NCBI GenBank assembly: GCA_015493585.1
Contig: WGCW01000001.1
Span: forward strand, 1 to 42,613
Length of the DNA: 42,613 nt
Direction: 5' to 3'
Origin: Acidobacteriota bacterium
GTDB lineage: Bacteria; Acidobacteriota; Thermoanaerobaculia; Thermoanaerobaculales; Sulfomarinibacteraceae
Each line of letters opens with the position of its first letter. Positions within the stretch are counted from its first letter, which is position 1. Under the pieces are notes generated by a model. The model was not told the DNA's origin. It made no database searches and worked only from the letters and a program-made list of their open reading frames with translations. Below are positions 26,260-29,644 of the stretch, piece by piece. A program made the translations under genes and the position numbers.

Positions 26260-27300
26260 ATGCGAACGAGTCTGACGAAATTCGTGGGTGGAGCGCTTGG
26301 TGCGCTGTTGATGGTGGCATCTCCTGCAGTCGCGCAGGAAAGGCTTCAACCGCGTCCCAAGGGGGAGCCGATCTTTTTTCACTGGTTGAACCCAAAGGCA
26401 CCGAAAGATCGTGTGATCCTCGAATACTGGTCGAAGGTCAAGGCGAACAAGGCAACGCCCGCCGAGATGCTCGATCTCGGAACGATGCTCTACCGGCGCG
26501 GTTTCTCTGGGGATGCCATCAAAATCTATCACCGCACGGCAAAGGCCTACCCCAATCTGGCGGAGCCGTGGTTCCTCGCTGGGCTCGTGGAACACCAACG
26601 GGATCATCTCAAGGCGGCACGTTCGAACTATAAGCGGTGTTTGAAGCTTCTGACCGGCAACGGCTGGTGCAACTTCTACATGGGCCTCGTGGAGGAACAG
26701 CTCGGAGATCCTTTCGACGCGATGCATTACTATGACCGCGCGTTTCATTTCGATCCGGATCTCGCCAATCCCAAGGTCAACCCGGAGGTGCTCAAATCCC
26801 GGCTTCAGCTCGGCGCCTATGTGAGGCACCTCAATCAGGAGCAGTTTGCCGGAAACATGCCGATCCACTTTTTCGAGGCTCACGGGCCACAGGGGTTCAG
26901 GTTGAGCTCGGCTGCACAGAGACGCAGGGCTCTCGAAAAACCGGTGGGTGCCGTTCACCGGCCCAGGAAGCTGGCTCGCCCGCATAAGGCTCGGGTGCGG
27001 CGCCGGCCAGCTCACTCGAGGAAGAAACCGGGCACACATGCCAAGGGGTTCACACCAAAATTCGTGGTCAAGGGGGTGCCAGCTCCGACACCGAATCCGA
27101 ACCGGATGCCGTGGGGGAGCTCGTGGAAACCCTCGAAAAAGGTGCAGCCGAAGACGCCTCCGAAGAAGCGTTCGATGTCCTTGTCAAAGGTTGCGCATCC
27201 GGTGGTGCCTCGGCGATCAAAGAAAAGACTGTCGACATCGGGGAAGATACGGCACGTGAGGCCGGCGCCCCCGACGCCGACGCCAGCACCGAAGAGGTAG
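26260..27300 (+). CDS. Secreted TPR protein with a basic proline-rich tail
   Basis: A 346-residue protein. The N-terminus MRTSLTKFVGGALGALLM then VASPAVAQ is a signal peptide with likely cleavage after AVAQ or VAQE. Residues 55-170 contain three or so TPR-like units: DLGTMLYRRGFSGDAIKIYH, PWFLAGLVEHQRDHLKAARS and FYMGLVEEQLGDPFDAMHYY. From about residue 215 to the end the chain is Lys/Arg/Pro/Ser-rich (for example RPHKARVRRRPAHSRKKP) and probably disordered, with a net charge far above its surroundings. Such tails can bind peptidoglycan, teichoic-type polyphosphates or nucleic acid; no role can be assigned. It starts 4 nt after the preceding gene, with GGGGG 8 nt upstream, so the two are an operon. 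Confidence 0.7.
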   Translation: MRTSLTKFVGGALGALLMVASPAVAQERLQPRPKGEPIFFHWLNPKAPKDRVILEYWSKVKANKATPAEMLDLGTMLYRRGFSGDAIKIYHRTAKAYPNLAEPWFLAGLVEHQRDHLKAARSNYKRCLKLLTGNGWCNFYMGLVEEQLGDPFDAMHYYDRAFHFDPDLANPKVNPEVLKSRLQLGAYVRHLNQEQFAGNMPIHFFEAHGPQGFRLSSAAQRRRALEKPVGAVHRPRKLARPHKARVRRRPAHSRKKPGTHAKGFTPKFVVKGVPAPTPNPNRMPWGSSWKPSKKVQPKTPPKKRSMSLSKVAHPVVPRRSKKRLSTSGKIRHVRPAPPTPTPAPKR

Positions 27301-27337
27301 ACGGCTCCTCCTCTCACCTAAGGTTTCACCTGAGGTG

Positions 27338-27730
27338 TCAGATATCGATTGTCGGTGGTGAGGGAGGACTGAAGCGCCGGGAGAGCGACTGAAGGATCAG
27401 GCGCCGAATCCACCTTCGGCAGGGGGGAATCAGCAGCAGGAACCCGCAGGCGTCAGTCATCAAGCCGGGTGTCAGCAGGAGGAGGCCCGCAGCGGCGATC
27501 AACGCGCCGTCAGCGAGATTTGCCGCTGGGATGCGGCCGTTGTGGAGGTCTTCCTGGATGGCTCGCAGCACCCTGAACCCCTCCCGCCGGGTCAGCCAGG
27601 CACCGATGACGCCGGTGATGATGACCAGCATCAGTGTTGGCAAGAGGCCAGTGAGCTCCCCGATTTTGATGAGGAGGAACAGTTCCACCAGGGGCACAAC
27701 GATGAAAAGGAGGATCAGCCAGCGCATCAT
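27338..27730 (-). CDS. fxsA: FxsA family membrane protein
   Basis: A 130-residue protein with four hydrophobic stretches. It begins MMRWLILLFIVVPLVELFLL, then KIGELTGLLPTLMLVIITGVIGAWLTRREG and later LLLLTPGLMTDACGFLLLIPP. These are the hallmark segments of FxsA (suppressor of F exclusion of phage T7), an inner-membrane protein of uncertain biochemical role. The reading frame stays open upstream to 28387, but that part is antisense to gdhA and its leader. Start is one of two adjacent ATG codons. TATGCT lies 6 nt before the first, so it may be leaderless. It converges on the TPR gene with a 37-nt gap and no T-rich terminator. Confidence 0.88.
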   Translation of the reverse strand: MMRWLILLFIVVPLVELFLLIKIGELTGLLPTLMLVIITGVIGAWLTRREGFRVLRAIQEDLHNGRIPAANLADGALIAAAGLLLLTPGLMTDACGFLLLIPPCRRWIRRLILQSLSRRFSPPSPPTIDI

Positions 27731-27827
27731 GCGGTGAGCATAGCATTCGCGCCATTGAGCCTCCATCCGGGCCTTGAGGCGTTGATTGGATGGTTTCTGT
27801 TCGGGAAATATCACGTGTATTGGTGGG

Positions 27828-27855
27828 TTGCAATGGGTCCAATTGCTGATATCAT
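27828..27855 (+). promoter_or_regulatory. Promoter of the gdhA leader RNA
   Basis: TTGCAA (27828-27833), a 16-nt spacer and TATCAT (27850-27855). The expected start site, near 27862, coincides with the first base of the predicted P1 stem of the leader RNA. The same -10 (TATCAT) serves the sigma-factor and icmF genes. Confidence 0.6.
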
Positions 27856-27861
27856 GCGATT

Positions 27862-27945
27862 CCGATGTGTCGCTCGTTGCGTTTCCAGGACTCTGGTCCA
27901 CACATCCGGCAGAGGTGGCCGAACCCGTCAGGGTCGGCTTTTTTT
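27862..27945 (+). ncRNA. Candidate structured leader RNA (riboswitch-like) or small RNA upstream of gdhA
   Basis: Between the promoter and a terminator lies an 84-nt stretch that folds as a three-way junction. P1 is 27862-27870 with 27900-27909 (9 bp, one bulge). P2 is CGC/GCG (27871-27881). P3 is CCAG GACT CTGG (27885-27896). An alternative stem, GG-CCAC (27895-27901, one bulged base) with GUGGCC (27915-27920), would break both P1 and the base of the terminator, giving a two-state switch. It does not match any riboswitch consensus I remember. It could instead be a free-standing small RNA. All pairings were made by eye. Confidence 0.5.
27918..27945 (+). terminator. Intrinsic terminator/attenuator in the gdhA leader
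   Basis: GCCGA-A-CCC (27918-27926) pairs with GGGTCGGC (27931-27938) around GTCA, with one bulged A. Seven T follow (27939-27945). It lies 161 nt before the gdhA ATG, so gdhA needs readthrough or a further promoter. A 37-codon frame (27964-28077) follows it without a clear ribosome site. The remaining 27731-28106 gap shows nothing else. Confidence 0.7.
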
Positions 27946-28103
27946 CTTTGGGAACGAAGAGAAATGGGAGGCAACCGGAGACAACGGAAAACGTGGAATG
28001 TGTTCGCCGCAGAGATGGGGTGCCGCTGCGGTGAATCGCTTCAATGGCGTGCATCCCAGGACAGCTCTCGTCACTGAGTGTTGGCTCGACACAGGAGGTC
28101 TGA

Positions 28104-29465
<1,362 letters not shown>

Positions 29466-29623: not shown

Positions 29624-29644
29624 TATTGAAACGTGGAGGCTGAT

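Follow-up and report, generated by a model that had tools for sequence, protein, structure and literature searches.

A conserved, terminated leader RNA upstream of gdhA in one genus of Sulfomarinibacteraceae as a candidate transcription attenuator

The systems closest to the leader described here are transcriptional riboswitches, organised around P1, antiterminator and terminator stems. The gdhA leader shared with them a predicted helical junction near the promoter, overlapping stems that would exclude one another and an intrinsic terminator in front of an enzyme gene. Yet it displayed neither a covariation-supported aptamer core nor an Rfam match, and it was recorded in two species only. Two nitrogen-associated riboswitch candidates, glnA RNA (RF01739) and Downstream-peptide RNA (RF01704), were listed for cyanobacteria and marine samples in a study from which gdhA is absent (PMC2864571). 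They are, like the present element, leaders of nitrogen-assimilation genes, but neither of them was matched by the gdhA leader, whether at the gathering score or with E values allowed up to 5. In Mycobacterium tuberculosis, ilvB1 is governed by a uORF-dependent attenuator with a leader terminator (PMC13236596), and polycysteine leaderless uORFs are attributed there to mycobacteria (Canestrari 2020, as cited in PMC13236596). Mycobacterial uORF attenuators resemble the gdhA leader by a start codon near the transcription start, ilvB1 also by its leader terminator, and the polycysteine uORFs by the cysteine found as second codon of the gdhA leader ORF in four of five species. The latter ORF differs from them in that it shows no regulatory codon run or conserved peptide and has its stop far past the terminator. 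No leader RNA for gdhA in this group was found in the literature searched.

The window, i.e. the whole stretch analysed, comprises 42,613 nucleotides of contig WGCW01000001.1 from an Acidobacteriota bacterium of the Sulfomarinibacteraceae (genome G000), and was compared with a single further genome of its genus (G001, the congener). Promoter, leader RNA and terminator all lay within the divergent fxsA-gdhA spacer. The features considered are the following.

27338-27733, minus strand: fxsA, divergent from gdhA
27828-27855, plus strand: promoter with -35 TTGCAA, 16-nt spacer and extended -10 (TGA)TATCAT, from a consensus scan
27862-27909, plus strand: three-way junction, from the MFE folds of both species
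27862-27870 with 27900-27909, plus strand: P1, 9 bp, C27906 bulged (MFE fold)
27871-27873 with 27879-27881, plus strand: P2, 3 bp (MFE fold)
27888-27891 with 27896-27899, plus strand: P3, 4 bp (MFE fold)
27895-27901 with 27915-27920, plus strand: alternative stem of the first-pass annotation, judged unlikely
27907-27921, plus strand: candidate antiterminator hairpin, CGGC (27907-27910) with GCCG (27918-27921), from folds
27918-27945, plus strand: intrinsic terminator, 8-pair stem interrupted by a one-base bulge that can slide, loop GTCA and seven T, from sequence and folds
27865-28077, plus strand: possible leaderless upstream ORF of 70 codons (MCRS...), extending across the terminator
28003-28035, plus strand: downstream hairpin, 28003-28012 with 28026-28035, loop GGGGUGC at 28017-28023
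28051-28057, plus strand: pseudoknot partner GCAUCCC, complementary to that loop
28093-28098, plus strand: Shine-Dalgarno sequence AGGAGG of gdhA
28107-29465, plus strand: gdhA, NADP-specific glutamate dehydrogenase (NCBIfam NF006929, 780.6 bits against a cut-off of 536)

The promoter proposed in the first-pass annotation was recovered by the scan, in which TTGCAA-16-TATCAT with its TG extension (9 of 12 matches) was the sole sigma-70-like site in 27300-28500. The accompanying claim that transcription starts exactly at the base of P1 was too sharp, since plausible starts extend from 27862 to 27865, a precision of about 3 nt. The extended -10 TGnTATNATGC was also present upstream of gdhA in the congener and in three sister genera (G005, G007 and G009), the same promoter type heading gdhA in four genera. 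Neither 27851-28244 nor the corresponding stretch of the congener contained a TA dinucleotide, so that no -10 of the sigma-70 type (other sigma types apart) is possible between terminator and gdhA. As this holds in two species, transcription of gdhA very likely reads through the terminator at 27918-27945, as far as sequence can tell. A main gdhA promoter downstream of 27945 was thereby argued against for sigma-70, and glutamate dehydrogenase would be the controlled gene, in agreement with the initial proposal. Furthermore, fxsA is oriented away, so the terminator can act only on a transcript started in the fxsA-gdhA spacer. The absence of TA was used solely to exclude a -10; the TA-free leader as a special signal was rejected, TA being scarce throughout the window (odds ratio 0.43, with none in 5% of 250-nt windows).

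Other signals were recorded around these genes. A dyad, ATTGG-N15-CCAAT (27819-27843), spans the -35 of the gdhA promoter, is kept in the congener and may be an operator. The fxsA gene is possibly leaderless, with TGCTATGCT 9 nt before the ATG at 27727 (27727-27745, minus strand), in which case its promoter would diverge from that of gdhA at a distance of about 100 nt. Downstream of gdhA, a sigma-70 family factor gene at 29633 displayed TATCAT 9 nt before its GTG and is also possibly leaderless.

The three-way junction followed by an intrinsic terminator, as initially described, was seen in the MFE fold, and a transcript spanning 27862-27945 would have the predicted short length of 84 nt. The terminator hairpin (27918-27938) is G+C-rich and stands directly before a run of seven T (27939-27945), as in intrinsic terminators; it was kept in the congener with altered loop and altered bulge. 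A consensus terminator scan missed 27918-27945, though it is plain in the sequence, which we attribute to the bulge interrupting the stem. Folding energies were near chance, with z values of -1.26 for the whole leader and about -1.4 for P1-P3, and some 10% of shuffles were equally stable; being that ordinary, they would not by themselves make the case for the fold.

Conservation was more informative. A DNA search of 60 relatives recovered the block in the congener only, at 87% identity over 126 bases and there too immediately before gdhA, with fxsA on the other side, its three other matches being 20-33-nt chance matches. Identity between both genomes was about 85% across 27830-27930 and about 50% in the flanks; per 20-nt step, 16-19 of 20 positions were identical from 27830 to 27929, against 8-12 of 20 on either side. 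With such diverged flanks, and with 43.5% of the fourfold degenerate sites of gdhA differing, the block is strongly constrained. Nine differences occurred in 27862-27941, located in loops, J2/3 or the sliding bulge. The terminated fold left all nine of them unpaired (P 1.2e-4); each of the two single-sequence MFEs left eight unpaired (P 1.3e-3 and 7e-4), and the ninth was the slidable bulge. In the overlapping ORF they fell on codon positions 1, 2 and 3 in the ratio 2/4/3, compared with 21/7/149 for gdhA. Since the differences avoided pairs and showed no codon-position bias, the constraint is of RNA type and not of protein type; a protein-coding explanation of the block was rejected on these codon positions and on the lack of a Pfam match for the ORF peptide. 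No covarying pair was found, since nearly every pair was invariant between the two sequences compared. Taken together, the block is very likely a real, conserved and structured leader with a terminator.

Outside the genus, the element was not encountered. A model of the junction (R2) retrieved its two training genomes only among 149 class and 396 phylum genomes, other matches being at chance level, and the genome held no second copy. In Rfam, only a tRNA reached the gathering threshold in the window; at E up to 5, the region 27700-28120 gave nothing relevant (two chance lncRNA matches), in keeping with the early remark that the fold was of no recognised class. In the sister genera G005, G007 and G009, gdhA followed the matching extended -10 after 356, 363 and 274 nt of leader, respectively, where no homologous junction was found (the folds were different and without comparable terminator). 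This distribution suggests that the promoter is older and that the terminated junction was added in the present genus. Elsewhere in the family, genus g6 (L091 and the near-identical L092) displayed a CRP-like palindrome, TTGTGA-N6-TCACAA, roughly 80-130 nt before gdhA, which would point to a different control of the gene. In genus g8 (L094, L095 and L096), the gdhA leaders have an ATG close to the predicted start, from which M[FR][DE]GI[IP]LRT is read; a long hairpin, GAGGA...TCCTC, then precedes the ribosome site of gdhA.

As to switching, the stem initially drawn between 27895-27901 and 27915-27920 was indeed complementary in both species, but its energetics were unfavourable: the best fold containing it reached -18.4 kcal/mol where the minimum was -30.9 (in the congener, -22.4 and -30.3), a deficit of 8-12 kcal/mol. 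The transcriptional logic proposed with it fared better for attenuation itself than for this two-state antiterminator. That logic is better fitted by the hairpin 27907-27910/27918-27921, whose left arm is shared with the P1 foot and whose right arm is shared with the terminator foot. Of the nascent RNAs tested at lengths of 62-75 nt, most preferred this hairpin in both species; it is compatible with P2, P3 and the P1 core, and kept its pairs in the congener while the loop changed. Its best full fold (-26.1 against -30.9) was 5-6 kcal/mol less stable than the final minimum. Should there be a switch, this hairpin would, on the folding models, be the more economical candidate. A start at 27864 or 27865 would remove two or three pairs from the P1 foot, so the winner between foot and antiterminator would depend on the transcription start. 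The terminated fold was the minimum and the terminator still formed with the first 12-30 nt masked; consequently, no computed state was clearly 'on'.

A second element was observed further downstream, some 35 nt ahead of the Shine-Dalgarno sequence of gdhA. The hairpin with its pseudoknot partner was arranged alike before gdhA in G000, G001, G005 and G007, that is in four genomes from three genera, and the seven pseudoknot pairs were standard in all four species. Between clades, three of these pairs showed double changes in the register used (two if the loop is aligned unshifted), and the hairpin stem carried further ones. Shuffled downstream strands paired equally well or better in 6.8% (G000), 0.8% (G001), 1.6% (G005) and 22% (G007) of cases. 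The hairpin model R1 retrieved the four gdhA leaders from 149 class genomes with E at most 4e-13; its other matches there were at chance level and, on inspection, without the pseudoknot layout. Rfam gave no match for this element. It is better supported than the block at 27828-27945 and might act on translation or on the stability of the message.

That the only visible route into gdhA passes a conserved, structured leader and its intrinsic terminator speaks for transcription attenuation, and we consider the block to be a cis-acting, lineage-specific transcription attenuator of gdhA with a probability of about 0.5. The odds are thus about even for control by RNA structure and higher if control coupled to translation is counted in. 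In its favour stand the conserved block, the nine unpaired changes out of nine, the conserved terminator and the absence of a downstream sigma-70 -10; two sequences without covariation, ordinary stability and confinement to one genus count against it. RNA polymerase would start near 27862-27865, make the three-way-junction RNA and then either stop near 27945, releasing the 84-nt RNA, or continue into gdhA. Pairing of 27907-27910 with the start of P1 would leave the terminator free to form, while pairing with 27918-27921 would block its foot. The natural guess for a trigger would be a metabolite or protein that reports nitrogen status and acts on the junction.

The main rival mechanism could be coupling to translation, an unlikely reading at present. 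A ribosome on the leaderless ORF from AUG 27865, which lies 9 nt after the -10 and inside the 5' strand of P1, would follow RNA polymerase closely, open P1 and sterically block the terminator, given that the first stop of the ORF comes only at 28077; untranslated, the RNA would let the terminator form. An ATG lies 8-9 nt after the gdhA -10 in five species, where the ORFs start MCR, MCR, MRC, MCC and MCC. In three of them the frame remains open up to or beside gdhA, ending in a TGA that overlaps the gdhA start in G001 and G009 and just before that start in G005; likewise, the ATG of neighbouring fxsA follows a -10 at 9 nt. However, the peptides are unrelated beyond the first residues, G000 and G001 show no third-position excess, and the short ORF with conserved regulatory codons typical of leader-peptide attenuators is not recognisable (no codon run, no coding-type constraint). 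Leaderless starts, moreover, were not clearly enriched in about 255 kb of genome sampled, and the masking of just the first 12-30 nt left the terminator intact. Promoter, compact fold and terminator also form a complete transcription unit of small-RNA size with conservation biased to structure, as would be expected of a stand-alone 84-nt sRNA, gdhA being fed by leak-through. This is rather improbable: gdhA has no other visible promoter, the sister genera have it behind a matching promoter without comparable terminator, and the element precedes gdhA in both species with no further copy in the genome.

A passive partial terminator, stopping a fixed fraction of polymerases and thereby setting the gdhA level without sensing, would agree with a terminator that forms in all computed conditions and with folds that give no switching. 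It is distinctly improbable, as conservation covers P1, P2, P3 and the linker besides the terminator. Within the attenuator reading preferred here, the junction might further be the aptamer of an undescribed riboswitch class for a nitrogen metabolite, acting through gdhA transcription termination, perhaps joined by the downstream pseudoknot as a second sensor at the level of translation. As in transcriptional riboswitches, the leader terminator lies on the only visible transcript of the gene, as far as sigma-70 promoters are concerned, and glutamate, glutamine, 2-oxoglutarate or ammonium are possible ligands; we nonetheless regard this extension as possible but improbable.

The pseudoknot provides a second, testable element of the gdhA leader, one with compensatory changes. 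If the attenuator reading is true, glutamate dehydrogenase, through which ammonium enters glutamate, would be controlled in this organism by premature termination.
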